A DNA stretch of 40,173 nucleotides from Pseudomonadota bacterium (GTDB lineage: Bacteria > Pseudomonadota > Gammaproteobacteria > Steroidobacterales > Steroidobacteraceae), in contig JAKAXA010000030.1 of the NCBI GenBank assembly GCA_021816775.1, positions 1 through 40,173 on the forward strand. Direction: 5' to 3'. Each line of letters starts with the position of its first letter. The first letter of the stretch is position 1. The position numbers and the translations under genes are program-made. This document shows, piece by piece, positions 2,653 to 17,896 of this stretch. The notes below the pieces were generated by a model. It was not told the origin of the DNA. It did no database searches and saw only the letters and a list, made by a program, of their open reading frames with translations.

Positions 2653-3123
2653 ATGGCGGGGTTTCCGGAACCGGAAGTCGGCCTCGTCATCTCGTACTCT
2701 TACCTCTGGAAGGAGGAAGAGGAACGAGGCTTGGTTGAGGGGCGAAAGGACAGACCGTGCGCCATCGTCCTCGCCGTCGATGTGCCCGCTCCCGACCCTG
2801 GTGGCCGCAAGCAGGTCGCCGTCGCGCCGATCACGCATTCACCACCCCACGACCTGAATGTCGCGGTCGAAATTCCGCCTCGGGTCAAAGAGCATCTGGG
2901 GCTTGACGGCGAGCGATCCTGGGTGGTCCTGGAAGAGGTCAATATCTTCACGTGGCCAGGGTTTGATCTGCGCCCTTTCAGGAGGGACGACACACGTATC
3001 GACTACGGGATGTTGCCGCCGAAATTCTTCGACGGGCTCATCGAAAAGTTCAAGGAACTGCGATCGCAAGGCGAGGTCGCTGGGGCTTCCCGAGATGAAC
3101 CCGCGCCGGCCGCCAAGGCGTAA
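2653..3123 (+). CDS. PemK/MazF-like toxin (probable mRNA interferase)
   Basis: 156 aa. The N-terminal VGLVISYSYLWKEEEERG and RPCAIVLAV segments follow the PemK/MazF pattern, where the early loop and the R-P-C/A-V-V strand form the endoribonuclease core; VAPITHSPP fits the next strand. The remainder is longer than a classic MazF (about 110 aa) and carries an Ala/Pro-rich tail from residue 143. Located 24 bp after a Phd-type antitoxin, which supports a TA role. Its stop codon TAA coincides with the left end of the tRNA-Phe-associated repeat, so the gene sits flush against an integration scar. The family assignment is reasonable but divergent. Confidence 0.65.
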   Translation: MAGFPEPEVGLVISYSYLWKEEEERGLVEGRKDRPCAIVLAVDVPAPDPGGRKQVAVAPITHSPPHDLNVAVEIPPRVKEHLGLDGERSWVVLEEVNIFTWPGFDLRPFRRDDTRIDYGMLPPKFFDGLIEKFKELRSQGEVAGASRDEPAPAAKA

Positions 3124-3296
3124 GATACACTCGTGGCAAAGTCACCCTGCCTCCACCCGGGACGCGAATGGGGGCAGTGTGTCAGGAATGAGCCGCGTCG
3201 AGATTGGGTGTGCCAGGAATGTGCCTGGGATAGGCTGGATTGGGGTCGGGCAAGCGCTGCAAGTGATTGATTCATAAGCCCATATGTAGCCGATAT
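3120..3296 (+). repeat. Long repeat, copy A (left of tRNA-Phe fragment)
   Basis: Homologous to 17675-17847. Shared blocks in order: GTAAGA, GACGCGAATGGGGGCAGTGTG, two GTGCCAGGAATGTGCC-like units separated by GATTGGGT, then GGATAGGC, CAAGCGCTGCAA and TGATTGATT, leading directly into the tRNA-Phe fragment. The paired GTGCC units could be recombinase arm sites, but that is speculation. Confidence 0.8.
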
Positions 3297-3345
3297 GCGG
3301 CTGAAAATCCGCGTGTCGGTGGTTCAATTCCACCCCTGGCCACCA
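3297..3345 (+). repeat. tRNA-Phe 3' fragment, att-like site A
   Basis: 49 bp corresponding to the anticodon arm, variable loop, T arm and acceptor 3' strand of tRNA-Phe. The anticodon loop CTGAAAA contains GAA; the variable loop is GTGTC; the T arm is GGTGG-TTCAATT-CCACC; the end is CCTGGCC-A-CCA. The 5' acceptor and D arm are absent, so it cannot be a functional tRNA. Such 3' tRNA ends are the usual duplicated site of tyrosine-recombinase islands. The T-stem G-to-A change relative to copy B keeps pairing. Confidence 0.8.
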
Positions 3346-3633
3346 CCAAATCAAAGATTTGGAGCCATAAGCGTCAACTCCGGGGGGAATAACGCCCCTG
3401 TCGTGGAATATTCGTGGTTCGCTGCGTTCGTGCTCCTGTAATCGTCGCGCTGCCGCGCACCAAGCCCTAGACGGGCGATGCGCGCCAAGTTCTGACGCGG
3501 CTATGTTCGCGCAATCCCGCTGACGAGTGCGCGCCAGTTTCGCGCAGAATTCAGCGAAACCAGGCTCAGTGATTTTGTGGCGGCCGCCGAGTTCCAAAGC
3601 GCCAGCTTCAATACGTCGTTCGTACGTAGACCC
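3346..3633. other. Non-coding stretch after att-like site A
   Basis: Directly after the tRNA CCA is a perfect small hairpin, CCAAATC-AAA-GATTTGG (3346-3362), without a T tract. No credible gene is seen beyond it. The minus-strand frame at 3608-3660 contains the out-of-frame continuation of the neighbouring AbiE-like toxin. Confidence 0.4.
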
Positions 3634-5025
3634 CTACTCGCCCCGGACACGGGTATCCGTTCCGCCCTTATGAGGGTTCAATGCTCCGTCCATCGATTTC
3701 CGCTCAAACGTCCTGTTGCACACCGTGCAGCGGAATACATGCGTAGGTCCTTGGTGATGGACGGAGACCGGACTCGCCCGCCGAGCAGAGGTGCGGAGTC
3801 GGCCGGCTACTCCACTGGACGAAGTGGACGCCACCGGAAGAGGACCCTCGGGCGTCAATTCGATCAGGTAACGCGGCGCGAACGATTGGCTCGTTACGGA
3901 GGCCCCTTGAACCCGGTCCACGCGGTAGGACCGATGCTGGCCAGAGTCCGACCGTATGGCGTGCAGTATGTAATTTCCTTCGCTCGACTGGCGTAGCGAG
4001 TAAGGTTCGATGCGACGGATCGAGCCATCGTAACGCAGATCGACGCAGAGCCGGTTCGCCGCTGCAAACCTGATGATCTCGAGCGGTGAGCGCGCCGACG
4101 TCGGGATGCTGATCGGGAGCACACGGCTCCGGATCGTGATATCAGTTGAGCCGGGCTCGATGCGCGCGCGCCTTGGTGCTTCCGCCCCGCTGGTGATCCA
4201 GGCGAAAATTTCAGGGAGCTCGTTCCAGAAGTCAGCGACCGGTGGCAGCACGGGGAGTTGATGGCCGAGCATGTTCTCCCACATTGCCTCGACATCCGCG
4301 CGGTGCGGTGCGAGGGCTTCGATCGTCGGTACCGCAATCGCTTTGTAGGCGCACTTCTGCTCTAATAAGTTGCGCAGAACGGATGCTGCCGGCCGGCTAT
4401 CGCCGTGCCGATAAAGATTGACGACATCGTAGAGGTCGCGCGGTCGCGTACGCTCACCAAGCGCTCGACAAACCTTCTCGCCGAAGGCCTCTTCGTAAGC
4501 GTAGCAGTTCACCCACATGCCACCGTCTGGCTTGTCGGAGTAGGGATGGAAGATTTCGCGGCGGGCTTCAGGCAGAACGAGTTTCTCATCGGCGGTCAGA
4601 TCAAGCTTGATCTTTGGCCAGCCGCCACCGGGCGGCGAGACGGGTCCGCGGTAGGCGATACGTCCTTGGCACGCGGTACGACCCCGCGGATTTGTGTAGA
4701 TATCGACGCCGATTTGATCCGTTGACATGGACAGGCCTGATTCATCTGCGACCCAGGCGACGACTTCGGCGAGTGCGCTACGCAGAAAGTCATCGGTGAG
4801 CTGATTCCCGTCGCGCAGCGTGAAATCGAGGTCTTCGGAAAAGCGGTAGGTTTCAAAGTAACACTTCTTGAGGCAGGTGCCGCCCTTGAAGATCCAGGAC
4901 TTGCCAAGGATAGGATGCGCATCGATGCCTGCCAGCATCCAACCGAGTACGTAGTCCTTCTCGACAATGTTCGGCAGGAGCCCGAGAGCCGAAGCCTGTT
5001 CCAGTATTTCTCGCTTATCGATCAT
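3634..5025 (-). CDS. AbiEii-like nucleotidyltransferase fused to WYL-like domain and Zn-ribbon
   Basis: 463 aa. Residues 1-250 are an AbiEii/DUF1814 nucleotidyltransferase: VEKDYVLGWML, F46-K-G-G-T-C, and S63-E-D65-L-D67 as the metal-binding pair, plus RPRDLYDVVNL near 195. About 303-385 resembles a WYL ligand-sensing domain (SPLEIIRFAAANRLCVDLRY, RIEPYSLR, RSYRVDRV). A Zn-ribbon start follows at 433-452 (C-T-V-C, then LNPHK). The encoded end is abnormal. A one-base shift near 3665 restores GYPCPGRVGVYVRT, which I recognise as the usual continuation of this ribbon, and would end the protein at 3608. So the last zinc ligand is lost by a frameshift (or a sequencing error). It overlaps the upstream partner by 11 bp. 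Confidence 0.8.
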   Translation of the reverse strand: MIDKREILEQASALGLLPNIVEKDYVLGWMLAGIDAHPILGKSWIFKGGTCLKKCYFETYRFSEDLDFTLRDGNQLTDDFLRSALAEVVAWVADESGLSMSTDQIGVDIYTNPRGRTACQGRIAYRGPVSPPGGGWPKIKLDLTADEKLVLPEARREIFHPYSDKPDGGMWVNCYAYEEAFGEKVCRALGERTRPRDLYDVVNLYRHGDSRPAASVLRNLLEQKCAYKAIAVPTIEALAPHRADVEAMWENMLGHQLPVLPPVADFWNELPEIFAWITSGAEAPRRARIEPGSTDITIRSRVLPISIPTSARSPLEIIRFAAANRLCVDLRYDGSIRRIEPYSLRQSSEGNYILHAIRSDSGQHRSYRVDRVQGASVTSQSFAPRYLIELTPEGPLPVASTSSSGVAGRLRTSARRASPVSVHHQGPTHVFRCTVCNRTFERKSMDGALNPHKGGTDTRVRGE

Positions 5026-5824
5026 CGGCGCCTCCGCCCCATCGCTCGGGAACCCAAAGCCGCCAGCTCGTCACGAGACGTTTGCAGGGCAGGTCCGGGT
5101 CGAGGCGGGCATAGCCTTGCGTCAGGTGCTTGCGGCACGCGGCCGCGAGCGTCGTGTCCTGGACGCGTACATCGGCGAGGAAGCCCAGGCGCTTGAATAC
5201 GGCACCATTGCCGAACTGAACCGCGTACCGGATGAGGAGGTCGCGATCGAAGTCGCGGGTCGCCAGGTAGGCGGCAAGGCAGTCGGCGACATGATCGATG
5301 CCGCCTCCAGTATCCGGCATCGCGAGCATGTCAATCAGCGTGCGCGCAGCGTCGGAGATGTTGACTCGTGTGGTGCCTCGCCAGATCGTCTTAAGCCCGT
5401 AGAGACGCTGATCGCTTGCGTGGTGGACGAGAAAAACGATGCCCTGGGCTGTCGTGCGCTTATGCGTGACACGGCGGGTTGTAAAGACGAGCGTCTCGTT
5501 GAAGAGCTGCTCGGTGAGATCCCAGTGATGGGCCGCCGTCCAGCCTCCGATGTAGCTGAGCCCGAATAGAGCCGGGGCCAGGACCCACGGGTCCTCTATC
5601 ACCTGTGTGGTCCCGGCAAGGTCGAGCGGCACGGGAACGTAGAGCCCGCGGCCGACCCGCCGAAGCCATCCCTGCTCGCGCCAGCGCGACAGGAGCTTGG
5701 CCGCCTCGCGGCGGCCAAGATTGAGCGCACCTGCAGCCGCGCTCACCGAAACGATCTGCTTGGCGGATCGGAGCACAGTCGACAAGCGGGCGCGGCCTGC
5801 GGGCAATGGGCGATTCTGCTCCAT
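5015..5824 (-). CDS. AbiEi-like antitoxin/regulator, partner of the NTase-WYL toxin
   Basis: 269 aa. An N-terminal winged helix-turn-helix (about residues 15-65: VSVSAAAGALNLGRREAAK, then LRRVGRGLYVPVP) is followed by an AbiEi-type domain (IGGWTAAHHWDLTEQLF, FLVHHASDQRLYGLKT, VNISDAARTLIDML, GGIDHVADCL). It resembles antitoxin/regulator halves of type IV systems that silence the adjacent nucleotidyltransferase. It is first in the operon and overlaps the toxin by 11 bp. The start ATG at 5824 fits; two direct repeats lie 22-59 bp upstream. Complete by length. It differs clearly from the AbiEi at 1383-1967, so the two operons are not recent duplicates. Confidence 0.8.
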   Translation of the reverse strand: MEQNRPLPAGRARLSTVLRSAKQIVSVSAAAGALNLGRREAAKLLSRWREQGWLRRVGRGLYVPVPLDLAGTTQVIEDPWVLAPALFGLSYIGGWTAAHHWDLTEQLFNETLVFTTRRVTHKRTTAQGIVFLVHHASDQRLYGLKTIWRGTTRVNISDAARTLIDMLAMPDTGGGIDHVADCLAAYLATRDFDRDLLIRYAVQFGNGAVFKRLGFLADVRVQDTTLAAACRKHLTQGYARLDPDLPCKRLVTSWRLWVPERWGGGADDR

Positions 5825-5845
5825 AGCTATACTCTATCACGCTCA

Positions 5846-5883: not shown

Positions 5884-6131
5884 TGCGTATAGTGACCGCC
5901 GAATTGCCGACGACCCGGTACCTCACGCGCAAGCGACTGGGATCGACAGCGCGCACGTCCACCGCGCCCGCTCGGGTGATGTAATGGTTCGCCTCAAGCT
6001 GGCCCCCCGCCACCCGCGCCCGGCTTTCGGCTTGGCGCTCGGTGTCCGGGCTTCGCGATGATCCTTTCCGGCCGTCTCGATCAGTCGGTCCGAGATACTC
6101 ATGGGCGGTCGTCAGGTACGACCTGTCTCCG
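5884..6131. other. No recognisable gene
   Basis: Open frames exist on both strands but none shows a family motif or a convincing start. Likely decayed sequence between the AbiE-like operon and the hairpin at 6132. Confidence 0.3.
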
Positions 6132-6166
6132 GTAACCATCCCCCGGCTTTGCCGGGGGATGGTTAC
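6132..6166. repeat. Perfect 16-bp-stem hairpin (REP-like)
   Basis: GTAACCATCCCCCGGC, loop TTT, then its exact reverse complement. No T tract follows, so it is not a standard intrinsic terminator. The GC-rich CCCCGGC-TTT-GCCGGGG core resembles REP palindromes. It separates two decayed regions. Confidence 0.75.
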
Positions 6167-6178
6167 TCGACAACGCCT

Positions 6179-6361
6179 GCACTTATTGAGAGCGAGCAAC
6201 TCGAAGGCAAATATGCGCTCAAACGAGTCGTGAATCCTAAACGGCACGAGCGGCCTCGCACAAAGATCTATGCGGTCCGACTGCTAAAGCACCCCAACAT
6301 CATCACGCTGATCGACCATTCGGCGCTGTCTTCTCGCGTTGAGACGCAGCCGATTACATGA
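6179..6361 (+). pseudogene. Remnant of a Ser/Thr protein kinase N-lobe
   Basis: About 60 codons in frame. EGKYALKRV carries the ATP-anchoring lysine of a kinase beta-3 strand. It is followed by a basic helix (PKRHERPRTKIYAVRLL) and HPNIITLIDHSAL, which matches the alphaC-beta4 H.NI..L.D region of eukaryotic-like kinases. No glycine-rich loop precedes it and no HRD or DFG catalytic loop follows; the frame ends at 6361. The fragment starts right after the REP-like hairpin. Substrate unknown. Confidence 0.5.
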
Positions 6362-6534
6362 AGTCGGAAGGCGACACGCGCCGCGCCGCGCTTGCCGATA
6401 TTGCTCGTGCGCGTGGCTCGATGCAGCTGGCGAAAGAGACTGGCCTCAGGTGCCCAGAGTCGCGGCATGCTGGACATCAGCGCGCGCCAGGTGAATTGCG
6501 CCATCGTCCGATTTTGCAGACAATTCCGCGATGA
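6358..6534 (+). pseudogene. Remnant of a HigA-like (addiction-module) antitoxin
   Basis: A 58-codon frame starting at ATG 6358. Residues 5-30 (DTRRAALADIARARGSMQLA then KETGL) match the helix-turn-helix of HigA-type antidotes, usually written AL.DIARARGM.QLA.ETGLSRE. After KETGL the sequence diverges where the recognition helix should be, so the gene is broken. Its stop overlaps the ATG of the next gene in an ATGA, which may be chance. Confidence 0.5.
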
Positions 6535-7202
6535 ACGAAGCTGACGCAGCCACCCTACGACTCCAATGCAGCGATTTCGCGGCTATTCGTGAGCAACTCC
6601 CGCCGCTCCACCACGCCATTCTGAAGCTGCTTTCCCGCCAGGACCTATTCACGTGCGGGCGGCATCTTGGTCTGCTGCGCAAAAAGACCTTTGTATTCGA
6701 CAACGAAGCCGAGAGCATGGTATTTGCCGACTATCAGATCTACTCCTATCGGCCGCGCGGATTCAACACCGCGGAGCTTTACCTGCGCTTGAACCGGGAG
6801 CGGCTGGCCCCGCTTCCGCTCGCTTTGCTGGAACGTATGAGCGCGGCGCTCTATACGATTTTCAGAGTCGAATCTCTCGAGGAGAACGGCGTGCGCATCA
6901 GCGATCTGCTGCTCGGTACCCAGACTCTCCTTCTCGATCGCAATCTGGCGCGCTCTGGCGCGGTAGGGATGGGTGTGGCGGCGCACCTCCTGACTTTCGA
7001 CGATTTCGCCCTTCAATCCGGGGGTATGCTGCCGGTCGACGCGGACCTGCTGGGCAACGACCCTTCTTCGATACGCCTCTTCAAGGCGATGCAGGAGGAC
7101 GGTACCAAGCAGACCGATCCGGCGGCGCGTGCCAAGCTCGCGCGGACGGTTATTGCGGCGGCCATACGCCACGGTTACACGAGCCGTATCCAGTATCGAT
7201 AG
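6531..7202 (+). CDS. Conserved hypothetical protein, 223 aa
   Basis: A soluble, mostly helical-looking protein of unknown function. Visible blocks: FAAIREQLPPLHHAIL, LFTCGRHLGLLRKKTFVF, MVFADYQIYSYRPRGFNTAE, ISDLLLG, and a hydrophobic mid-section around VAAHLLTFDDFALQSGGMLPVD. I recall similar hypothetical proteins in other Proteobacteria but know of no assigned role. No signal peptide or membrane segment. It is convergent with the SNF2 helicase gene, with only 19 bp between the two stop codons, so it may belong to the same module even though transcribed oppositely. Confidence 0.6.
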   Translation: MNEADAATLRLQCSDFAAIREQLPPLHHAILKLLSRQDLFTCGRHLGLLRKKTFVFDNEAESMVFADYQIYSYRPRGFNTAELYLRLNRERLAPLPLALLERMSAALYTIFRVESLEENGVRISDLLLGTQTLLLDRNLARSGAVGMGVAAHLLTFDDFALQSGGMLPVDADLLGNDPSSIRLFKAMQEDGTKQTDPAARAKLARTVIAAAIRHGYTSRIQYR

Positions 7203-7221
7203 GCCCGGCGGTCTCGTCGGC

Positions 7222-10200
7222 TCAACCGTCCTCCCGCAAGAGGCTCGTGAGCTCCTCGATCGAGAGGGACTGGCCAAAGCCCTCGCCGCTGAAGAGTCCT
7301 TCGGCTAGGGCGCGCTTGTCGCGGTGCAGGTCCATGATCCGCTCCTCAATCGAGCCGTGAACCACCAGCCGATAGACCGTGACGGGCCGCCGTTGGCCCA
7401 TGCGGTGGGCTCGGCCCACGGCCTGGTCTTCCACGGCGGGATTCCACCACGGGTCGCAGATGACGACATAGTCGGCGGCGGTGAGATTGAGGCCGAAGCC
7501 ACCGGCACGCAGGCTGATGAGGAAAAAATCGCCTTCGCCGGCTTGAAACGCGCGCACGCCGCGGGCGCGCTCGTCCGCCGGGGTGCTGCCGTCGAGATAT
7601 TGATAGCTCGCTGCGAGCGCATCGAGCCGCGTGCGCAAGAGTCGCAGGTAATCGACGAACTGGCTGAAGACCAGGGCCTTGTGGCCGCCGGCGGCGAGCT
7701 CCTGAGCGAGCGTTGCGAAGGCCTCGAGCTTGCAGCCGGGCATTGCAGTCTCGGGCGCGACGAGCTGCGGATCGCAACACGCCCGGCGCAGCCGCATCAG
7801 CTCGGTGAGCACCTGGAAGCGGCGCTTTCCGGGGCTCAAGGTCTCATCGCCGACCGCCGCGAGCGCGCTCTGGCGCAACGCATCATGGAAGGCGCGCTCC
7901 GCTTGCGATGGATCGAGTGTGAGCACGATTTCGGTGCGCTCCGGCAGCTCGCTCAACACGGAAGCCTTGGTCCGCCGCAGTACGAAAGGCGCGATCAGCC
8001 TCTGCAGGCGGCCGCGAGCCTTCGCGTCCGCTCGGCGCTCGATCGGCACCGCAAACCGCTCGTTGAAACGCTCGCGCGATCCGAGAAGTCCCGGGTTGAG
8101 AAATCGAAACAGCATCCAGAGCTCGTCCAGGCGGTTCTCGACCGGGGTACCGGTGGTGGCGACCCGAAAATCCGCCTCGAGCTCGAGAACCGCCTGTGCG
8201 CGGCGGGTCGAGTAGTTCTTGACCGCCTGCGCCTCATCCAGTACCAGCGTGTGCCACCGACGAGCTCTCAGGTCTTCGAGCACCTGGGGCAGCAGCCCGT
8301 AAGAGCAGATGACGACATCGAAATCCCCCGCGGCAGCGATCCGCTGCGACCGATCGGCGCCGCCGAGCATCTGCACGTTGAGCGTCGGAGCAAAGCGGCG
8401 CAGCTCATCGGTCCAGTTGGAGCAGACAGAGGTGGGCGCGAGCACCAGCGCGGTGCCTCCGGTTGCGCGATGTAGGAGAAGCGCAAGCGTCTGTACCGTC
8501 TTGCCGAGCCCCATGTCGTCGGCAAGACAGGCCCCCGCGCCGCAGTGGGCGAGGCGCGCCAGCCAGCGAAAGCCATCGAGTTGGTAGGGTCGCAGCTGCG
8601 CCTGCAGGGTCGAGGGCGGATCGAGCTCGAGCGCTTGCGCCTCCTCGAACGCTCTGAGCCGGCTCGCCCATTCGGGCGCCGCTTCGAGCCCGAGCCCCTC
8701 GAGGGTATCGGCAACGGCTGCAAGCGCGAGTGCCGGAAATCTGAGCGTCTCACCGTCGAGCTCGCCGAGACCCTCGAACTCATCCAGCCGGCGCCGCAGG
8801 TCTTCGCTCAGGGCGAGAAAGCCGGCATCGCCCAGCGGCAGATAGCGCCCGCCGCTCGCGCGCGCCAGCTCGATGAGCGCGCGCATCTGCATCACCTCTC
8901 CGTCATCGAGCGACAGGCTCCCGGACACCGCGAACCAGTCCCGGTCGCTCCCGATCCTGAGACTCAGATCCGCAAGGCCGTACGTGCGGGTGACTCGAAT
9001 GGGCTTGCCGGCTGGCCACTCGACCCGCACCGCATCGCCGAGCGATTGCAGACGCTCCACGAGCTCGAGGCACGACTCAGGGTCCTCGAGACTCCATTCG
9101 GTGACTGACGCGCCGGTTTCCGGCAACGCCAATGGCTCGAGAACATGCGCGAGCCGCTTGCGCTCACTGGACAGGTCGCGGAGCGCGGCGCAGCGCGCAC
9201 CATCGATCTCCGCGACGATGCGCAGGCGCCCGGTTCCAGGAGTGCAGCACGGGCCGCGCCCACCCAGCGGCCTGACCAGGAATCGCACTCGCAGTCCCGA
9301 GCCCGCCGGCGAGAGTGCCGCGTAGATCGTCGGATCGGCGGGAACTTCCCCGACGGCTGTCTCGACATCGGTGTGGACCTCGAAGTGGCGCGTCACGTTC
9401 GCGAGCGTCCGACTGAGCGCCTCCACGCCCTGGGATGGAAAGTCCAGGCCCGGCCCGATCAGCTCCGCGATGCGGCAATGCGCTCGCGTGATCTTCAGCA
9501 CGCGCGCCCGATGCGGGCCATCTCGCAGCAGCACCAGGCGCTCGGCTGGCGTGTGCTCGATCTGGCGGTAAGCGGCGCGGTGCAGTGTTTCATAGATTTC
9601 TGTCGGCAAGTGCAGCCGTACGCCGCCGCCTGCACGGTTTTCCACCAGCAATTCAGGCAGGCCCGCCGTCAGGACCACGGGGGTGGTCAGATCCCCGGCA
9701 TAGAAGACGAGTGGGTGGCCGACGAGCGCGGCCACCGCCAGCGGAACGTGAGCGCCGAACGGATCATAATGACCCCTGCCGTGCTGCAGCGCTTCGAAGA
9801 CCCGCTCATCGTGGGCGGAGAGAAAGCCCTGGGCATGGCTTGCCGCGCCCAACGGTCTGCCGGCGCTCCACCCGCGCGCTCCGCGCTTCTGTTCGCGCGG
9901 TTCCACGCGAACGGCGCCCGAAGGCGGCGTCTCGATGACCCAGACGATCCGCGTGTCGGCCGCTTGGCCAGCCCCGTTCCGCGACTCTCCCACGAGCGAT
10001 TCCAGCGCTTCGACTGCGCGCTCCCACGGGGCTTCGTCCACGAAGAATGCCGAGAGCGTGCCGCGTTGCGTGGCGCTCAGCTCGCCGCCATGTCCGCCGC
10101 CATCTGGATCGCCAGCTCCCGGTGCAGCGCTGTCCTTCCGCCGCCCTTGTGCCATCGCCAGAGCCGCGTCGATCTCGAGTGCGGCACGTTGATAGCCGCC

Positions 10201-11442
10201 CATCCGGAACCTCTCCAGGTCCGAGGCAGCTACGCGCTCGTGCGCCTCATCCAGTGGAACTCTCGCCCAGGAGACCGCGATGAGCGTGCACAGGTTCGCC
10301 ATGGCATCGCTGTCTGTGATAGGCAGGTGCCAGGGGGGATGGCTGTTGTGCCTGCGCGCGCGTACGGCTTCCCGGATGAAATTCCAAACGCTGGAGCCCT
10401 CCGCAGCGCGGGTCTCCTTGAGACACAGGAGCTGCGCGGCCTCGACGGTTTGCAGCTCGTCGACGACGGCGAGCGCTGCGACGCGCAGAAATGCGAGCGA
10501 TGGCGGCAGTCTCGGGATGATGAGCTTGGCGCCCCGCAGCCGGCTTCCCGCGCGGGCTCGAGCCTCCTCGATCAGCAGCCGCTCGGCCCGCGCATACAAC
10601 TCGATGGCACGGCGGGGATCGGCGCCGAGCACGGCGGTAGCGCCCTGCAGCGCCACGGCTCGCGCACTCGCGTCCGCGCCCAAGATCGTGCCAAGCTCCT
10701 GCGCTCGCCCCTGCCATAACAGGTGCTCGCAGAGGCCGTATCTCAGCGTACCTGAAGCCTCCGGCGCCGCGTGCGTCTGCGAGACGAGGTCGAGCGCCCA
10801 GGCCAGCGCTGCCGGCGCCGAGGCGTTCGGTCTCCTCAGCAGATGCAGCAACACCGCCTCAGCCACAGCCTCCCGGTGCGCCGCTGGAATCAGATCGGCG
10901 ACCCGAGCGTCGAAAGGATCTCCAAATGCGGTGAAGTACACCGCGGCGGGATCGAATGGCCGGTGCCGAGTGAGCAGCTCGCGTCGATCCTGCTCGTGAA
11001 GCCCGGCGCATAGCGCAAAGCGCGTGATGGCCACCAGTCGCCCGAAACTCGACACTCGAATCGCGTCAGGCTCCGACCGGTGATCGAAGAGAGCGACCGC
11101 CGCTGATCGCCATTCCCGCAGACCTCTCTCGCCGAGCGCCATCTCACGGAACGCCGCGAACGCGTGCGCAGGCGCACACTGGAGACCTTTCCGCCCCTCC
11201 TCGATGTGGCCGCACGCCAGGCCGGCGTCCATGAGCCTTGCGATCTGTGCCGGCGTCAGCGAATTCCCCGAGTCAGACCGCAAACCAGCTGTATAGGCGG
11301 CGCGCTCCCACCGCGGCCGCTCGAGAGCGCCCCCCACGACCGCTATGAAACGGACGAGCGAAGAATAGCCCGCCGCTTGCGGCTCACGCGGCGTCCCAAC
11401 GCCAGCGGCAGGTACTGACACGATGGGTTTTACCTCTCTCAT
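7222..11442 (-). CDS. SNF2/RapA-type ATPase (DEAD/DEAH-like helicase), 1406 aa
   Basis: A full SNF2-family ATPase occupies the C-terminal ~450 residues. Visible motifs are: motif I DDMGLGKTVQTL near residue 970-980; APTSVCSNW (Ia); VLDEAQAVKN near 1065 (motif II, the bacterial DEAQ form); TTGTPVENRLDELW (III); and a helicase-C half with LVFSQFVDYL, SLRAGGFGLNLTAADYV and DQAVGRAHRMGQ (motifs V-VI, arginine fingers, about 1340). Such enzymes translocate on dsDNA to remodel protein-DNA complexes. The first ~900 residues have no motif I recognise; HSKRL-type zinc fingers are not apparent. The gene lies 58 bp after the 2OG-oxygenase gene on the same strand. Standalone SNF2 proteins are frequent in phage-defence islands, which fits the setting. 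Confidence 0.88.
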   Translation of the reverse strand: MREVKPIVSVPAAGVGTPREPQAAGYSSLVRFIAVVGGALERPRWERAAYTAGLRSDSGNSLTPAQIARLMDAGLACGHIEEGRKGLQCAPAHAFAAFREMALGERGLREWRSAAVALFDHRSEPDAIRVSSFGRLVAITRFALCAGLHEQDRRELLTRHRPFDPAAVYFTAFGDPFDARVADLIPAAHREAVAEAVLLHLLRRPNASAPAALAWALDLVSQTHAAPEASGTLRYGLCEHLLWQGRAQELGTILGADASARAVALQGATAVLGADPRRAIELYARAERLLIEEARARAGSRLRGAKLIIPRLPPSLAFLRVAALAVVDELQTVEAAQLLCLKETRAAEGSSVWNFIREAVRARRHNSHPPWHLPITDSDAMANLCTLIAVSWARVPLDEAHERVAASDLERFRMGGYQRAALEIDAALAMAQGRRKDSAAPGAGDPDGGGHGGELSATQRGTLSAFFVDEAPWERAVEALESLVGESRNGAGQAADTRIVWVIETPPSGAVRVEPREQKRGARGWSAGRPLGAASHAQGFLSAHDERVFEALQHGRGHYDPFGAHVPLAVAALVGHPLVFYAGDLTTPVVLTAGLPELLVENRAGGGVRLHLPTEIYETLHRAAYRQIEHTPAERLVLLRDGPHRARVLKITRAHCRIAELIGPGLDFPSQGVEALSRTLANVTRHFEVHTDVETAVGEVPADPTIYAALSPAGSGLRVRFLVRPLGGRGPCCTPGTGRLRIVAEIDGARCAALRDLSSERKRLAHVLEPLALPETGASVTEWSLEDPESCLELVERLQSLGDAVRVEWPAGKPIRVTRTYGLADLSLRIGSDRDWFAVSGSLSLDDGEVMQMRALIELARASGGRYLPLGDAGFLALSEDLRRRLDEFEGLGELDGETLRFPALALAAVADTLEGLGLEAAPEWASRLRAFEEAQALELDPPSTLQAQLRPYQLDGFRWLARLAHCGAGACLADDMGLGKTVQTLALLLHRATGGTALVLAPTSVCSNWTDELRRFAPTLNVQMLGGADRSQRIAAAGDFDVVICSYGLLPQVLEDLRARRWHTLVLDEAQAVKNYSTRRAQAVLELEADFRVATTGTPVENRLDELWMLFRFLNPGLLGSRERFNERFAVPIERRADAKARGRLQRLIAPFVLRRTKASVLSELPERTEIVLTLDPSQAERAFHDALRQSALAAVGDETLSPGKRRFQVLTELMRLRRACCDPQLVAPETAMPGCKLEAFATLAQELAAGGHKALVFSQFVDYLRLLRTRLDALAASYQYLDGSTPADERARGVRAFQAGEGDFFLISLRAGGFGLNLTAADYVVICDPWWNPAVEDQAVGRAHRMGQRRPVTVYRLVVHGSIEERIMDLHRDKRALAEGLFSGEGFGQSLSIEELTSLLREDG

Positions 11443-11500
11443 TCCGGGGCGAGCGCCTCGCCCGGCTCGGTGCCGGTGACGCTCGCGGCTTTTCCCGACT

Positions 11501-13837
11501 TCAGAAGCGTCCCGCCGCCGTCTCGAGCCACCGGAGGTCTACCTTCGCGGCTCGACGAGCCGTCGCGTCGTGCTTGAACAGCGTGGTGGTCTTCTCCAGC
11601 ACCAGCGTGAAGGGACTGCCCTTGCGGCGGGTGGCATGGGTCACCGGCAGACCGTAGCGATCGATTTTCTGATGCACATGTGCTCGCTCCGCCTGGGCGA
11701 GCGGCCACTCCAACCGTCGCTCGGCCGCCGCGCGCAGAAACCTTGTCAGTTGTGCGCACAGCTTGCAGGAGCAGAGCAGCGGCGTCGTGATCGACCAATC
11801 ATCGCGCGCGCGTGCCGGGGCGCGCAGCCGCGCCTCCAGCTCCTGGGCGCAACTTTGGTGTATACGCTTCAGGCCCAGCGCGCGCAGCGCCTCGGTGCGA
11901 AAACCCGCATGTGCGGTTCGCAACAGGCCGAGTTGCAGGGGCAGGGTCGCGGCAGATTGCTCCAGCAGCGCATCGATCAGTTCCCGGTGCAGCGCGGTTT
12001 GCCGCGCGGACCCGCAGCTCGCGATCAGCGCCAGCATCGGCCGGGCGAGGCCGTGAAGGGCCTTGGCGCGATCCGATTCCGAGCCTTCCCGTTTCAGGAC
12101 TTCCCTCCAGTGTTGCCGCAACCAAGTCCATTGCGCCGCGAGTACCTCGGCCGCGAGTGACTGGCCCGCCGATTCTCGCGCGACGAGCGCCCGGGAGAGC
12201 TGAGCCAACGCCCCGCCCATCCACTTCAGTCGGGTCTCGTCCGGTTCGTAGCCCCTGTCTTCGGCCGTCCACCCTCGCAGCAGGGCGCGGCACCACCCGA
12301 GACCATAGATGTCCACGAGAGCGGCCAGCCGCGGCGCCGACCGCGCGCTGAGCTCCCACAGGGAAAAGGGTTGCAGGAGCGCGGCGGCCGTCCGGGGATC
12401 GGCCAGCGAGCCGGCGACTTTCACGGTCGCCTCGAGCAGCTTGTTGTCCCGCCGAACACAGGCGGCCCAGAACGGCAGCAGCTGGCGCGCCAGCGCCGTG
12501 GCTTCGTCCGTATGCCTGGCAGTGAGCGCCTTGTCGATTCGAGCCAGCGCCCAGCGCGGGTCCGTCTTGGCTCGGATCACGAACTCGCGCGCTCGCGGCC
12601 ACAGCACCACGGCGGCGCGGTGATACCAGTGGTCCACCGTGTTGCCGGCATTGCCCGTGTAGCCCTCGTGCTCGGTCTCGAACGGCTCGAAATCCTGCGA
12701 CGGCGTGGTGTAGCACAGCTCGCGGTAGGCAACCGCGATGTGGCCCTTGGGCGCGCGGCCGGATCCGCCCTCCGGTGCGACCCAGTGCCGCAGCTCGACG
12801 TCGCTGTCGATCAGGTCCGTGAGCTCGTACGGCCCATCCGATCCGTATTCCTCCTCCTCCGCCTCCTCGTCCTTGTCGTAGTAGCGGTTCCAGCGGGAGC
12901 GCCTGAAGTCGTATTCCTCTTCGCAGTTCCACGTCTCATGCACATCCGCCAGCGCGAGGAAGATCTCGCAGTCGAGCTGCCGCGCGACCTGCCGCAGGGC
13001 GGCGGCGCGCGCCGCATCCGCGTTCTTCAGCCGGTTCCACGCGAGCGCGTGCGAGGTGTACTCATGATCGAGCAGATAGACCAGGCGGTCGGCAGGGCTC
13101 AGCTCGCGACTGCCCCTGTAAGATGCCGTCGGGGTGTCGAAGAAACGGCGGATGCGAGCGCTCAGCTCGCCCAGCGACTTCGGTACCGCCGCATCGGTGG
13201 TCCCTTCGACGATGAGGTTGTAGGTGAGGGCGAGGCGGTAGCCCGAACGGACCGGGCGCACCTCGTGATGACAATCGGCATAGAAGGCGGCGAAGGTCAG
13301 CTGCCGCGCCGAGCCGCGCACCGTCACCTGCTCCCCGATGTGCTCGATCACGAGCTCACCGCCGGTGAATCGGGACGGCAAGGCCACTACCAGCGTGCCG
13401 ACCATGTCGTCCGCCTTCTCGGAGTCCCGGTGCGAGGCGAAGAACTGCCCGCGCTCGTAGACCAGCAGGTTGTGAAGCTGGGCCCGCAGGCGGCACCCGC
13501 GTGGCAGCCCGAGTTCGCGTCGGATCCTCTCGAGCTGCGGGGCGAGGGTCTTCGCCCACCGGCGCTCATCGAGCGCAAGTCGCTGAGCCGGGATCTCCCA
13601 GGTGTCCCGCACGCTCCGGTCGAGCCGCGTCTCGTCCTTGTAGCCATGGCGCGCGGGCTGGGCGACTGCGCTCAGCTTCCGAGCCGTCGCAGGACTGACG
13701 GGCAGGGGCACCTGTCCGACGCCCTCCACCGTAAGAGACAGATCCTTCGGGCTGCGCGCCGTATGCGTTGCGAACCGGCCGCCTGTGTCGATCCGGCCGA
13801 GGAGCTTGGCGATCTCATCGAGTGTGGTGCTCATCAT
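11501..13837 (-). CDS. 2-oxoglutarate/Fe(II) dioxygenase (prolyl-4-hydroxylase type), 778 aa
   Basis: Residues about 85-215 form a P4H-type double-stranded beta-helix: LVYERGQFFASHRDSEK gives the iron ligands H136 and D138; FTGGELVIEH and FYADCHHEVRPVRSGYR give the distal histidine (H190/H191) and R201, which would bind the 2-oxoglutarate C5 carboxylate. These enzymes hydroxylate protein or nucleic-acid substrates at the expense of O2 and 2OG. The remaining ~560 residues are an uncharacterised region with an acidic patch (DKDEEAEEEEYGSDG near 330) and helical stretches. Start ATG 13837, with a second in-frame ATG next to it. Same strand as, and just upstream of, the SNF2 gene, so probably co-transcribed. 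Substrate unknown. Confidence 0.85.
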   Translation of the reverse strand: MMSTTLDEIAKLLGRIDTGGRFATHTARSPKDLSLTVEGVGQVPLPVSPATARKLSAVAQPARHGYKDETRLDRSVRDTWEIPAQRLALDERRWAKTLAPQLERIRRELGLPRGCRLRAQLHNLLVYERGQFFASHRDSEKADDMVGTLVVALPSRFTGGELVIEHIGEQVTVRGSARQLTFAAFYADCHHEVRPVRSGYRLALTYNLIVEGTTDAAVPKSLGELSARIRRFFDTPTASYRGSRELSPADRLVYLLDHEYTSHALAWNRLKNADAARAAALRQVARQLDCEIFLALADVHETWNCEEEYDFRRSRWNRYYDKDEEAEEEEYGSDGPYELTDLIDSDVELRHWVAPEGGSGRAPKGHIAVAYRELCYTTPSQDFEPFETEHEGYTGNAGNTVDHWYHRAAVVLWPRAREFVIRAKTDPRWALARIDKALTARHTDEATALARQLLPFWAACVRRDNKLLEATVKVAGSLADPRTAAALLQPFSLWELSARSAPRLAALVDIYGLGWCRALLRGWTAEDRGYEPDETRLKWMGGALAQLSRALVARESAGQSLAAEVLAAQWTWLRQHWREVLKREGSESDRAKALHGLARPMLALIASCGSARQTALHRELIDALLEQSAATLPLQLGLLRTAHAGFRTEALRALGLKRIHQSCAQELEARLRAPARARDDWSITTPLLCSCKLCAQLTRFLRAAAERRLEWPLAQAERAHVHQKIDRYGLPVTHATRRKGSPFTLVLEKTTTLFKHDATARRAAKVDLRWLETAAGRF

Positions 13838-14030
13838 TCAGCCCGATCAGCGTGCCCGCCCGCGAAAGCGATCATGATGCCACGATGCCTGATTCCCGCC
13901 ACCTCAGTACGCACTGTACGCTGTGCACGAAACGCGGATCATCGGCGAGTGGATCGCGACCATGCAGCTCACGATTCCCATTCAACGACTGTGCTTACCG
14001 GCCTGCCACGCCGCTGCTGCGAGACGTCGA

Positions 14031-14351
14031 TCAGGGCGATTTCTCACGCCTCAGCCGTTTTGTCTCGCGCCGGGCAGCCTTCTTCTGCTCCAAATGACGA
14101 GCTCGCTCCTCGATGGAGTGCACCACTTCGGGGCGATCCTTGCCGAAGCGCTTTCGGTAAAGCGCCTCGATGAAGCCGGGCAGCGGCAGCTTCCAGGGCT
14201 CCTGGTCGGCGTTATCGAGCTTGCCGAGTTTCCGGGGGTTCATGCCGAGCTCGCGAGCCACTTGCACATGGGCGTGCGAGAGATGGTGTCGCTGGCGTGC
14301 CGTGATCCATTCCTGCAGATGAGCATCTGCGCGCGGGGTCTTCGGGCTCAT
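14031..14351 (-). CDS. Small basic conserved hypothetical protein
   Basis: 106 aa from ATG 14351, which overlaps the stop of the upstream TPR gene in an ATGA (14348-14351), so translation is coupled. WITARQRHHLSHAHVQVARELGMNPRK looks like a helix-turn-helix-type segment, followed by LGKLDNADQEPWKLPLPGFI and YRKRFGK. The C-terminal 30 residues are strongly basic and helical (ERARHLEQKKAARRETKRLR). I recall this as a widespread but unnamed bacterial family; binding to nucleic acid is suggested only by charge. A 193-bp gap without a gene separates it from the oxygenase downstream. Confidence 0.7.
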   Translation of the reverse strand: MSPKTPRADAHLQEWITARQRHHLSHAHVQVARELGMNPRKLGKLDNADQEPWKLPLPGFIEALYRKRFGKDRPEVVHSIEERARHLEQKKAARRETKRLRREKSP

Positions 14352-15337
14352 GTGCCAGCCACGGCTTCTTGATCCTGATCTTCTTCCCAGCCTCGGCCAT
14401 GGCGAACGTCGTCCCAACAGGATCGCGCGCCTTGATTGTCGTTCGGGTTAAGCGACAGGAGGCGCTCAAAAGCCTGCTGGGCTTCCCGAAATTGCCCTAG
14501 GCGCCACAGGCACAGGGCATATCCGTGCTGACATCTGAGAAATGGGCGGTTGTAGATATGACCCCAGAGCAGCACGCCATCGAAACCCGGTGGCAGCCAC
14601 AGCTCCCCGATCCGCAGTCCGATCTCGTAGTGGAGGATCGCGCGCTCGGGCGAGTGATCGAATTCAAGGTTGCCGAGGTGCGCGTGTGCGTCGAGACAAC
14701 GAAGATCGGTGCCCAAGGCCTCCATGAGCAGCTCGTATGCTTCCGCTCTCAGGCCTGCCTGCACGAGCTCGGCCGCTTCGCAGGTGAGATTCTCCTCCTC
14801 GTCATCGAGGCCGGAGAGTTGCCCCCAGGCGATTGGATCCATGATGAAGCTGGGGCGTGATTTCGCTGTCAGCTTGCGCCAGAGCGGCGCGTACGGGTCC
14901 TTTCCGCGGTAGGGCTCATAAGTGGCGCGCAGGTCGATGAGTCCGTCGTCGCGCAGAATCAGTGGCTCGAGAGCCAGCTGATCGACGGCGATACGAGGAT
15001 TCTCGATCGAACCGCTCGCGTACGCGTCGCCCTTCCAGGTCCAGCGCTTCTTGATCACCAGCGTCACGACTTGTCCCGGCAGGACCCGCCACATGTCCGG
15101 GGAACGGAACGTGATCTGGCCGGCTTCCGAGAGCACGCGCACGCGGACCGACCGCTGGTTCATTTTCAGCACCGCCGCATCGAGCCTCAAGGGCTCCTCG
15201 GCAGCAGGTCCCGGGTCGTCCTGACCCAGTACGGCAGCGCGCTCGCGCATCACGTGGATGCGCGCGGCCGTATAAGACTCGCCGGTCTTCTGCTGGCGCT
15301 CGCGGATGATTCTTTTGAGATCTCGGTGGGCAGTCAT
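14348..15337 (-). CDS. TPR-like protein of unknown function, 329 aa
   Basis: The N-terminus (RDLKRIIRERQQKTGESYTAA then RIHVMRERAA) is a short helical module that I recognise from various bacterial proteins without a known role. The middle (residues 60-150) is beta-rich (VRVRVLSEAGQITFRS, VLPGQVVTLVIKKRWTWKGD). The C-terminal half carries tetratricopeptide-like helices: DLRCLDAHAHLGNLEF, ILHYEIGLRIGELWLPPGF, LRCQHGYALCLWRLGQFREA and QQAFERLLSLNPNDNQGAR. No signal peptide. It is the first gene of the minus-strand block small protein > 2OG oxygenase > SNF2 ATPase, so it may be a scaffold or adaptor for that block; this is inference. Confidence 0.72.
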   Translation of the reverse strand: MTAHRDLKRIIRERQQKTGESYTAARIHVMRERAAVLGQDDPGPAAEEPLRLDAAVLKMNQRSVRVRVLSEAGQITFRSPDMWRVLPGQVVTLVIKKRWTWKGDAYASGSIENPRIAVDQLALEPLILRDDGLIDLRATYEPYRGKDPYAPLWRKLTAKSRPSFIMDPIAWGQLSGLDDEEENLTCEAAELVQAGLRAEAYELLMEALGTDLRCLDAHAHLGNLEFDHSPERAILHYEIGLRIGELWLPPGFDGVLLWGHIYNRPFLRCQHGYALCLWRLGQFREAQQAFERLLSLNPNDNQGARSCWDDVRHGRGWEEDQDQEAVAGT

Positions 15338-15772
15338 CGCTTCTCCTCGCTCAACGCTGCCTCGGCCCCGCCCTCGGCTGCGCTGCGAAGAAACGCACGA
15401 CCAGCCAGACCGGAGGAGTCTGCTCCCCTTTGCTCCATTCGAGGGATCCCGCGGGGTGGATCCGTCGGAGTTCGGCGTCGGCTACGCCATGCGGGCGAAA
15501 CATCCCACAGAAGCCCTTACGTCGTCAACAGCGACTCGCATTGACGTGATGCACCTGATCTTTCAGCGGACGATTCTCGAGGTCGCGGTGCGATGCGCTG
15601 GGGAGGCATTGCTCTCAGCCCTCGGACAGGCGAACAGCCGGGCGAAGCAGGACGCTGTTCGAAACCGAAAGGCAGGCAGCCGTGGTGAATGCGGCGTCGG
15701 TGAAGCGCACATCGGCGCGGAATCCGCGAAGCGCTTGAATACGCACTCGAAGGATCAAGCACCATCACGGCG
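15338..15772. other. 435-bp stretch without a recognisable gene
   Basis: Holds whatever promoter drives the minus-strand block at 15337. Open frames on both strands are low-complexity or Arg/Ala-rich and lack family motifs. Nothing else seen. Confidence 0.4.
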
Positions 15773-15985
15773 CTACGACGAGGAGCGAGTTACCCGACCC
15801 AACCAATACCTCGGACTGCGGCGGTAATGTGCCACTGCGAGCACCTGAATTATGGAATCCCGCTCCCGATAGATGATCGTCAGGGGAAACAGGCGCAGCC
15901 GCACACGCCGGATGTCCGGTTGACGCTCGATCAGGTGTTGTGCCGGTGGCTCGCAGACGTTGCGGATCGTCTTCAGAAAGTGCTC
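15773..15985 (-). pseudogene. C-terminal remnant of a RelE/ParE-type toxin
   Basis: In-frame block HFLKTIRNVCEPPAQHL then PDIRRVRLRLFPLTIIYRER and VLAVAHYRRSPRYWLGR. This is the typical RelE/ParE second half: the R.R...FP..I.YR strand pair and the V.A..H..R.P.YW terminus. The N-terminal helices and start are missing; the frame upstream is unrelated. It is back-to-back with a HigB remnant on the other strand, so both lost their 5' ends at about the same point (15985-15993). Confidence 0.6.
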
Positions 15986-15992
15986 GCGATAG

Positions 15993-16352
15993 CGAGCTGG
16001 CGGCCGAACGCCGATAACTGAATGGCTCGCGGGGCTCCGCGATGCTGGGGCGCGTGCGCGCATCGTATCGAGGCTCGATCGACTGAAAGCCGGACTTCTC
16101 GGCAATTGGAAGGGCGTCGGCGAGGGCGTTTGCGAGCTGCGCATCGACTATGGTCCCGGCTACCGCGTGTATTACGCGCAGGACGGCAAGGCGCTCATCC
16201 TGCTCCTATGTGGTGGCGACAAGCGAACCCAAGCCAAAGATATTGAGCAAGCACATGCGTACTGGAAAGACTACAAAGCCCGCAAGTCCAAGCCGCCCGT
16301 TCCGAGCGGCGGAACATCTGCGAAGCGAAGCCGAGGTCGCTACCTACATTGA
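15993..16352 (+). pseudogene. HigB/RelE-type killer protein with lost start
   Basis: The frame between a stop at 15990 and the stop at 16352 encodes GGRTPITEWLAGLRDAG, RLDRLKAGLLGNWKGVGEGV, ELRIDYGPGYRVYYAQDG and LLCGGDKRTQAKDIEQA, then WKDY. These are all hallmarks of HigB-type addiction-module killer proteins (mRNA interferases of the RelE superfamily). No ATG, GTG or TTG occurs before TPITEWL, so the natural first ~8 residues are gone; the rest is intact and even extended by a Lys/Arg-rich tail. Either a non-functional relic or one needing a rare start codon. It overlaps the antitoxin remnant downstream. Confidence 0.65.
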
Positions 16353-16440
16353 GGCAATGCTCGAGGACGGTGACGCGCGCGCGGCAACCGTCCCTCACCG
16401 GCGCGCGCCTGATACACAGTCCCCGTGCGACCGCGACTGA
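16255..16440 (+). pseudogene. N-terminal remnant of the HigA-like antitoxin
   Basis: From ATG 16255, inside the end of the toxin frame: FRAAEHLRSEAEVATYIEAM then LEDGDARAA matches the N-terminus of HigA-type antidotes (L.....DVAAYLEA.LEDGD). After that the helix-turn-helix (DIARARGM.QLA) is absent and the frame ends in unrelated sequence at 16440. The missing half resembles what remains at 6358, but both retain the EDGD-like junction, so they come from different genes. Toxin-first order is normal for higBA. Confidence 0.5.
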
Positions 16441-16489
16441 AGGCCGCATGTGGAGACGCTTGGTCCGTCAAACGAATGGCGGTTTTTTT

Positions 16490-17059
16490 TCAGAGGGACG
16501 CCAAGAACGGACGCAGGGCCGATACGGTCTCGGGCAATCCGTTTGCCAGAAAAGTCTCCAGCAATTCCTCGGGCGTCTTGGGAGGTGATTTCAAATCCTG
16601 GCGCTGCTCCTGCACGACCCTCAGCACCGCGCCCATGCCGAGGTCACAGAGGTGGCGGACGAATTCGTCGGGGTGCTGGGCCTCGATATCGAACTCGCTG
16701 AGCGCGTCGGCTGGAAAATCTTTGAGGTTTGTCGTCACGATGACGGCTGCGCCGCTTTTGATCGCCGCCGCAAGTACGTGGCGGTCATCGGCGTCCGGGA
16801 GGCGCAAATTCTCGATCAGTGGCTCGTACCCCGTGACCAGGCAGTCAGGGACGGCGGAATCCATCATCCTGCGAAGCCGATCTAATTTCTCCTCGTCGAT
16901 GTCCGGTCGCTGACGCTTCAGCGCCCTCATCCATTCTTCGTGAATGTGATGGGTCCAGTGAGCCCGGAATAAGCCGGTCCTGGCAAGGCGGATCAGAAGA
17001 TCCCGGATGGGGGCCGGATAGAGCACGCAGGCATCGTATACGGCCCCGAACGTCGCCAT
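16490..17059 (-). CDS. PIN-domain toxin (VapC-like endoribonuclease)
   Basis: 189 aa. PIN fold with expected acidic residues: VYDACVLYPAPIRDLL (D9), HEEWMRALKR (E41/E42 region), LPDADDRHVLAAAIKSGA (D89-D92 region) and VTTNLKDFP (D113). PIN proteins are Mg2+-dependent RNases, usually toxins. The gene starts 6 bp after the stop of an HTH protein on the same strand, giving an antitoxin-toxin pair. The C-terminal third (FVRHLCDLGMGAVLRVVQEQ) is helical and typical of the PIN subgroup paired with excisionase-type antitoxins. Complete. Confidence 0.85.
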   Translation of the reverse strand: MATFGAVYDACVLYPAPIRDLLIRLARTGLFRAHWTHHIHEEWMRALKRQRPDIDEEKLDRLRRMMDSAVPDCLVTGYEPLIENLRLPDADDRHVLAAAIKSGAAVIVTTNLKDFPADALSEFDIEAQHPDEFVRHLCDLGMGAVLRVVQEQRQDLKSPPKTPEELLETFLANGLPETVSALRPFLASL

Positions 17060-17065
17060 GGGCGA

Positions 17066-17548
17066 TCAGTAGCCCAAGCCGAGCTCTTGCGACAGCGTCG
17101 TCAGTTCGGCCGCCGCTTGCCGGGTTTCGGTCGACGTGCGCTCCCGATACTTCAGCAGCTCGCTGAAGGCGACACGTCGGTGGGTCCCGACCCTGCGGAA
17201 AGGAATTTGCCCCGCTTCCACGAGCTTCACCAGGAATGGCCGGGACACGTTGAGAAAATCGGCGGCCTCCTGCGTCGTGAGCTCGGCGTGATACGGGACG
17301 ATGCTGACCGCATTCCCCTGGGCCATCTGCGAGAGGATCTCTACCAGCATCCGCAGCGCTGGCACGGGGATCGATAGCGGCTGATCATGGTCGCCGTGCA
17401 GGACGAGACGGGCCGAATCTCCCTTGCCCACGATCGCGGCCAGCAGGCGGCTGCTGCTCTTGGCCAGTTCGGCATCGCTTGCGCTGGGGACCACCAGGTC
17501 CGCCCGCAGAGGCGTGGTCGATGGCTGTTTGACTGCTGCCTCACTCAT
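17066..17548 (-). CDS. Excisionase-type HTH antitoxin
   Basis: 160 aa from ATG 17548 (an in-frame ATG further upstream at 17592 is possible but would overlap the operator-like repeats). C-terminal MerR/excisionase helix-turn-helix: ELTTQEAADFLNVSRPFLVKL, VEAGQIPFRRVGTHRRV and FSELLKYRER, spanning residues 90-140. The N-terminal half (SRLLAAIVGKGDSARLVL, LSIPVPALRMLVEILSQMA) would be the toxin-binding part. It precedes the PIN toxin by 6 bp. Such antitoxins autorepress; three 9-bp-spaced repeats lie upstream. Confidence 0.82.
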   Translation of the reverse strand: MSEAAVKQPSTTPLRADLVVPSASDAELAKSSSRLLAAIVGKGDSARLVLHGDHDQPLSIPVPALRMLVEILSQMAQGNAVSIVPYHAELTTQEAADFLNVSRPFLVKLVEAGQIPFRRVGTHRRVAFSELLKYRERTSTETRQAAAELTTLSQELGLGY

Positions 17549-17594
17549 GGTCGTCTGCCTGCTATCTGGTTTAGCGCATTGTACATCCATCTGA

Positions 17595-17618
17595 ACGAAA
17601 CAATCGAAACATTCGAAA
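17595..17618. promoter_or_regulatory. Three phased CGAAAC repeats, candidate antitoxin operator
   Basis: CGAAAC occurs at 17595, 17604 and 17613, exactly 9 bp apart (CGAAACAAT CGAAACATT CGAAAC). They lie 47-70 bp upstream of the HTH antitoxin start. Regular spacing suggests cooperative binding of the HTH protein. Confidence 0.45.
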
Positions 17619-17674
17619 CTGCGACATGAGGCCCTCAGGCGTAAAATGCCGCGACGTCCTGCCGTGCGAACTAG

Positions 17675-17847
17675 GGTAAGACGGTCGCCAAGAGGCCCTG
17701 ACCCCATCCAGGACGCGAATGGGGGCAGTGTGCCAGGAATGTGCCGAGTTGGGATTGGGTGTGCCAGGAATGTGCCGGGGATAGGCGGGTTTGGGGCTCG
17801 GCAAGCGCTGCAACTGATTGATTTAAAAGCCCCTGTATAGCCGGTAT
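17675..17847 (+). repeat. Long repeat, copy B (left of tRNA-Phe fragment)
   Basis: Direct-repeat partner of 3120-3296 with the same block order: GTAAGA, GACGCGAATGGGGGCAGTGTG, two complete GTGCCAGGAATGTGCC units, GGGATAGGC, GGCAAGCGCTGCAACTGATT. Closer to the apparent consensus than copy A. It directly abuts the tRNA-Phe fragment. Confidence 0.8.
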
Positions 17848-17896
17848 GCGGCTGAAAATCCGCGTGTCGGTGGTTCGATTCCGCCCCTGGCCACCA
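17848..17896 (+). repeat. tRNA-Phe 3' fragment, att-like site B
   Basis: 49 bp, same as 3297-3345 except for two T-arm changes: anticodon loop with GAA, GTGTC variable loop, T arm GGTGG-TTCGATT-CCGCC, and CCTGGCC-A-CCA end. No D arm or 5' acceptor, so it is not a tRNA gene. The distance to site A is 14,551 bp, the size of the putative excisable unit. Confidence 0.8.

Follow-up and report, generated by a model that had tools for sequence, protein, structure and literature searches.

The stretch of DNA analysed here (the window) is the entire contig C33 (JAKAXA010000030.1, 40,173 bp) of a gammaproteobacterium of the Steroidobacteraceae, and its subject is a row of gene units linked to tRNA-Phe. 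Because the window is the whole contig, its flanks are not directly readable. A 213-nt repeat is present in two copies on the same strand (3133-3345 and 17684-17896), with 86% identity and a spacing of 14,551 bp, and each copy ends in the 3' 49 bp of a tRNA-Phe gene. A whole-genome search with the first copy recovers the second at E 1.5e-68, well past chance. ARAGORN finds no tRNA genes in the window, and neither repeat copy has a tRNA 5' half, just as an initial annotation made from the letters alone had read the two pieces. The repeat that it placed ahead of each piece is also real, but the repeated stretch upstream of the tRNA piece measures 164 bp rather than about 175 bp.

Upstream of each tRNA piece lies a conserved arm made of two TGTGCC-N5-TGTGCC pairs and a GGCAAGCGCTGCAAGT block. 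Continuous identity to the genome's own tRNA-Phe, on contig C68, begins at CTGAAAA in the anticodon loop, and the GCGG immediately 5' misses one A in both copies. In 34 printed tRNA-Phe pieces with varied upstream DNA, identity likewise sets in within the anticodon stem-loop, in most cases at CTGAAAA or beside it; these are the pieces that start at or after tRNA position 20 and reach position 70, earlier starts or shorter ends being excluded. Both window repeats look like attR ends, with a P arm of paired TGTGCC motifs followed by tRNA sequence from the anticodon stem-loop, which agrees with the initial proposal of attR-type ends left by successive insertions into one tRNA-Phe gene. The arm also occurs at 2050-2103 and 26695-26743, in two truncated copies that have no tRNA piece. 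The initial annotation saw no recombinase gene in the window, and indeed the PF00589 integrase profile has 19 matches genome-wide and none on contig C33 (serine recombinases were not searched for); the window does contain an IS66 transposase gene, outside the 14.5-kb unit. An Rfam search of the window at gathering cut-offs gave no match, with no attC or IntI model used. The features are listed in Table 1.

Table 1. Features of the window, in order of position.
Position	Strand	Feature	Evidence
1-2104	.	Right part of element 1 (left part and integrase gene on C68)	~99% to G071 element over 126-2104
493-1386	-	AbiEii toxin gene, element 1	PF08843, E 5.1e-32
1383-2222	-	AbiEi antitoxin open reading frame (ORF), element 1; called ORF extends beyond the truncated arm	PF13338, E 2.9e-13
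2050-2103	+	Truncated P arm lacking a tRNA piece (model positions 2-55); right end of element 1, degraded	
2104-3345	.	Unit 2: Phd/YefM antitoxin 2353-2628 (PF02604), 156-aa ORF 2653-3123, attR	Homolog in G026
3178-3291	+	P arm, first attR; TGTGCC-N5-TGTGCC type pairs, then GGCAAGCGCTGCAAGT	Arm model 102.6 bits
3297-3345	+	Displaced tRNA-Phe 3' half, first attR	98% to C68 tRNA-Phe, positions 27-76
3346-3561	.	Left end of large element, second attachment family (GTGGAATATTC near 3405)	
3634-5025	-	AbiEii toxin with C-terminal WYL domain	PF08843, PF13280
5015-5824	-	AbiEi antitoxin	PF13338, PADLOC AbiEi
7222-11442	-	SNF2 helicase	Top PADLOC match DpdE (581 bits); ZorD models also match
11501-13837	-	2OG-Fe(II) oxygenase-domain protein	PF13640
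14348-15337	-	TPR-repeat protein	
15990-16020	.	Junction, read as deletion	G003 homology stops at 15997, other DNA after
16475-17896	.	Unit 4: PIN_3 16490-17059, HTH_17 17066-17707, own attR	
17729-17842	+	P arm, second attR	Arm model 102.1 bits
17848-17896	+	Displaced tRNA-Phe 3' half, second attR	94% to C68 tRNA-Phe, positions 27-76
17897-17965	.	Possible P' arm: TGTGCC motifs at ~17933 and ~17955, 22 bp apart	
17897-26743	.	Unit 5: PIN_3 18024-18455, two-component system, outer-membrane efflux protein, further ORFs	
26695-26743	+	Truncated P arm; right end of unit 5, degraded	27.5 bits
31186-32715		IS66 transposase gene, outside the 14.5-kb unit	

The intact tRNA-Phe gene and the integrase that the initial annotation expected to the left are both found on contig C68. 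The tRNA gene lies 4.3 kb from the right end of C68, and 7 bases downstream of it is the end of an ORF for a tyrosine integrase of 430 aa, which is directed toward the tRNA. The relative G071 has a single element of about 7.6 kb that runs from tRNA-Phe through an integrase 99% identical to that of C68, a TOTE-type helicase/primase, AbiEii, a transposase and AbiEi to an arm and a tRNA-Phe piece; its left part matches C68 at 98.7% and the remainder matches window 126-2104 at about 99%. The TOTE primase profile is divided between the two contigs, with positions 1-50 at window 112-477 and positions 147-228 on C68. Because one G071 element matches both contigs and this profile is split over them, C68 and the window most likely belong to a single array that an insertion has broken in two. 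The end of C68 past the G071 match (ORF L036:17076-17567, which has no Pfam family) looks like the insertion at the break. At the point matching window 2050-2103, G071 has a full arm and a tRNA piece. An intact tRNA, an adjoining integrase and a distal tRNA 3' piece, the parts expected of an island made by a tRNA-targeting tyrosine integrase, occur together on a single contig in G071 and in a Burkholderiales element described below, while in the window's own genome they are divided over C68 and C33, and the final tRNA piece of element 1 has been lost. We also note that this integrase element, divided between contigs, combines AbiE with a TOTE conflict-system primase/helicase (L036:14731-16602 and window 112-477).

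The DNA between the two repeats had been taken for one integrated island of 14.5 kb. We reject this, given its left end of the second arm family, the junction near 16.0 kb and a separate PIN/HTH unit on the right with a TGTGCC-type arm; comparison with relatives shows it to be a fusion of a large second-arm-family element and the small PIN/HTH unit, probably made by a deletion. Window 3301-3561 shares 81% identity with a G003 stretch made up of a tRNA-Phe piece and the DNA following it, beside type-2 arms (the other family, TGTGGAATATTCC). The G003 homolog spans window 6061-15997, with gaps, to its contig end, and terminates in a TGTGGAATATTCC-family arm. The homolog of unit 4 in G006:C12 begins about 40 bp past an arm and a tRNA-Thr piece. 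The toxin-antitoxin (TA) and defence-like cargo first noticed in the segment is borne out by the AbiE, SNF2 (DpdE-like) and PIN/HTH matches. Within it, the block at 7222-15337 (DpdE-like SNF2 helicase, 2OG oxygenase and TPR protein) is kept at about 83-87% in G003, and we regard it as a candidate defence operon. The 156-aa ORF of unit 2 has no Pfam match, and a profile search found no PF00589 integrase in unit 5. The TGTGCC arrangement at the left end of unit 5 recurs after an intact tRNA-Phe in G003:C83.

Relatives carry the same units in other orders. In G006 a homolog of window 17897-26671 directly follows the intact tRNA-Phe, with a full arm and a tRNA-Phe piece about 1 kb further on, and the AbiE element, there lacking an integrase gene, follows after that. 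In G026 unit 2 is followed by window DNA from 17897 onward and the 14.5-kb segment is missing, so that the comparison with relatives lacking the segment, suggested at the outset, places the junction inside the same attachment repeat, although the next 90 bp or so differ from the window. Several elements stand in a row, each ended by a piece of the target in the same orientation, which is the arrangement that characterizes tandem accretion. The tRNA-Phe of other genera of the order (G044, G056, G057) is also followed by tRNA-Phe pieces, with different DNA upstream of them. One of these loci, G044:C150 (L078), has tRNA-Phe and then three short units in 7 kb with different arms, the first an AbiE pair and the last a Fic protein; no integrase is among the matches listed for that contig.

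Most units in the arrays compared show no integrase ORF. In the fetched genus loci, attachment sites bound 23 units at both ends, and 21 of these lack an integrase ORF by profile, a count from loci picked for holding arms or tRNA pieces, with arm matches below 20 bits dropped and some boundaries being truncated arms. Their spacing runs from 89 bp to 14.4 kb, with a median of 2.5 kb. When the whole genomes of G065, G069 and G076 were searched with PF00589, none of the matches listed fell inside their units. A G069 unit (G069:C54) nevertheless holds a 71-aa integrase remnant, pointing to decay, and the first ORF of a G065 unit resembles an integrase start. A TA-family match is present in 13 of the 21 integrase-less units (one, to PIN, under the Pfam cut-off) and three more are homologs of those; the ORFs of the remaining five (L071, L073, two in L074, L171) were outside the Pfam scan. 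The TA and defence families among the units are AbiE, PIN, RES, Fic and Phd.

A model of the arm matches 23 of 58 genus genomes in 51 places, some of them weakly, and in a sample of the class 4 of 369 genomes, one being the window's own and the other three weak. This spread, with many contigs too short to show a tRNA gene, could suggest a small dispersed element that carries a tRNA piece by chance, and the initial annotation had itself named occurrence at many unrelated loci as telling against an island. We disfavour such an element as very improbable. In the window's own genome C33 has four arm matches, C29 has one and C14 has a single weak one (34.5 bits), so that the good ones are restricted to two contigs, and arms precede the 3' halves of different tRNAs (Phe and Thr, and Met in Burkholderiales). 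In every fetched locus that has both an intact tRNA-Phe and an arm match above 25 bits (5/5 loci), the arms, seven in all, lie downstream in the orientation of the tRNA, as do five weak matches (15-20 bits) in five further loci.

The integrases beside tRNA-Phe in G024, G065 and G070 (frameshifted) have a TGTGCC pair in the last part of the ORF, 57-74 bp from the tRNA. Because the same pair stands within the ORF end next to tRNA-Phe, the G024 type (type 1, 373 aa) is the likely partner of the arm. The complete Burkholderiales element (about 7.6 kb) consists of tRNA-Met, an integrase, an arm and a tRNA-Met piece (positions 33-77); over 236 aa its integrase shares 67% identity with the G029 integrase at tRNA-Thr, and the element contains a second integrase-like ORF. 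Arms were also found before tRNA-Thr pieces, and before tRNA-like ends in a few other Proteobacteria, where the tRNA names are our own. The best type-1 integrase match in the window's own genome is a broken copy on C29, where 7263-7852 (L037) holds an arm, a tRNA-Thr 3' piece and the truncated, stop-containing integrase, a second and decayed site. An exact pattern scan of viral contigs for the arm, with degenerate forms not tried, gave no match.

We consider it very probable that the window belongs to an array built by accretion on the downstream side of tRNA-Phe, with successive tyrosine-integrase insertions and units resembling cis-mobilizable elements (CIMEs). Tyrosine-integrase elements would have entered the anticodon loop of one tRNA-Phe gene one after another, each restoring the tRNA with its own 3' half and displacing the previous 3' half outward (the structure is observed, and the order of events is our reconstruction), and a P arm with a tRNA piece would have been left at the distal end of every inserted element. 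Many units may have lost, or never had, an integrase gene, yet kept predicted attachment sites and TA or defence cargo; such integrase-less units would behave like CIMEs, and TA pairs probably help to hold them in place. Fusions between units would have followed, including the presumed deletion that joined the large element to the PIN/HTH unit.

Several observations weigh against this account. The join between C68 and C33 rests on relatives, not reads. The C68 integrase is not of the type with a TGTGCC pair at its own end, yet its G071 element ends in a TGTGCC arm, so either integrase genes have been swapped or ends have been lost. The empty-site comparison falls short of a base-perfect match, since G026 and G006 both depart from the window over roughly 90 bp following the tRNA piece; the window version of these bases resembles the DNA after tRNA-Phe in G003. 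In G006:C12 (L070:2270-3914) a single small PIN unit has a tRNA-Thr piece on one side and a tRNA-Phe piece on the other, so that a row combines two tRNA targets, an arrangement that simple accretion does not predict. Neither an excision product nor an empty tRNA site was seen within one strain. In favour of the account, AbiEii loci lie near one of the 51 arm matches more often than expected (11/109 within 5 kb against 0.21 expected under uniform placement, and 12/109 within 10 kb against 0.37), but this test takes related loci as independent and defence genes cluster in islands anyway.

Units may also be shuffled, fused and deleted now by homologous recombination between repeated arms or tRNA pieces rather than by an integrase, a possibility that we hold to be real, if somewhat improbable. 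Truncated arms recur with similar end points, the arm is common to tRNA-Phe and tRNA-Thr sites, and in G026:C2 (L106:4572-4700) a P arm is joined straight to integrase C-terminal sequence and both core and tRNA piece are missing, which resembles the outcome of recombination between a P arm and a P' arm. Recombination of this kind leaves unexplained how attachment sites with tRNA identity from the anticodon stem-loop were first gained.

It is unlikely, in our judgement, that the integrase-less units are one-operon cassettes cut and inserted by the integrases of other elements, like integron cassettes. Small units (about 1-2.7 kb) that carry a TA pair as well as an attachment site do recur across arrays in varying order, the left ends of the PIN unit follow three different attachment sites in G006, and in three genomes RES/HTH pairs stand next to tRNA-Thr pieces, the one in G023 being recognised by sequence only. 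However, cis-mobilization with a neighbour, or homologous recombination between arms, accounts for the same shuffling. Among the 11 bounded integrase-less units that begin at tRNA-Phe or a piece of it, only the one at window 17897 shows its own TGTGCC motifs within the first 100 bp, and there the spacing is 22 rather than 11 bp. No circle was seen, and at least one such unit (G069:C54) retains its integrase remnant.

To the right of 26743, no arm and no tRNA-Phe or tRNA-Thr piece was found in the window. The region 27600-33400, which holds the IS66 gene, matches 18 of 57 other genus genomes in pieces, and the chromosome boundary on the right side of the array was not found there. Further right, a single ORF at 35138-37039 matches both low-molecular-weight phosphatase and glyoxalase families.

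Integrons and CALINs (clusters of attC sites lacking integron-integrases) hold rows of integrase-less cassettes, many with TA genes, that use attC sites and IntI; the array here has instead a tRNA 3' half and an arm of paired motifs. Tycheposons are another case of tRNA-linked integrative elements with tyrosine recombinases. It seems doubtful to us, though worth stating, that the arrays form a tRNA-anchored cassette system, in which short integrase-less cassettes, many with one TA operon and a standard attachment site (an arm of paired TGTGCC motifs, an anticodon-loop core and a tRNA 3' half), would be collected and reordered in trans by integrases at tRNA-Phe and tRNA-Thr. If true, this would be a tyrosine-integrase counterpart of the TA cassettes in superintegrons. 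The accretion array, for its part, offers an example beyond Streptococcus and Dehalococcoides of tRNA arrays made mostly of integrase-less, TA-carrying units. Its integrase family and attachment site can be identified, which makes the movement of orphan units and their retention by TA pairs testable, and the attachment-site model supplies boundaries for seeking more defence genes. A search limited to open-licence PubMed Central papers found none on this array, which does not imply that it is unpublished.

A general scheme of accretion is given in a review of integrative and mobilizable elements (IMEs; PMC5704250). According to PMC3146451, Dehalococcoides islands lie in tandem downstream of one tRNA-like gene, ssrA, with 3'-end repeats as bounds, and 15 of them have no integration module and are possibly CIMEs in accretion; these use a serine recombinase and a 20-bp ssrA repeat, whereas we find tyrosine integrases, tRNA-Phe and tRNA-Thr, and TA-rich cargo. 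The CIMEs of Streptococcus salivarius, as PMC7563491 describes them, are att-bounded, 1.2-13 kb long, without recombination genes and variable in order, and the species also has gene-less microCIMEs of 130-220 bp, which the 89-bp attachment-site spacing in G036 resembles. Those CIMEs derive from integrative and conjugative elements or IMEs, whereas the array here is known from its attachment sites and cargo. In Shewanella, PMC8978831 reports that the HipAB TA pair on one component stabilises a composite tRNA-Trp island, an experimental result there, while for the tRNA-Phe array we suggest such stabilisation by analogy. Taken with these systems, the best match for the array appears to be tandem accretion with CIMEs, an already known kind, as in Dehalococcoides and streptococci.

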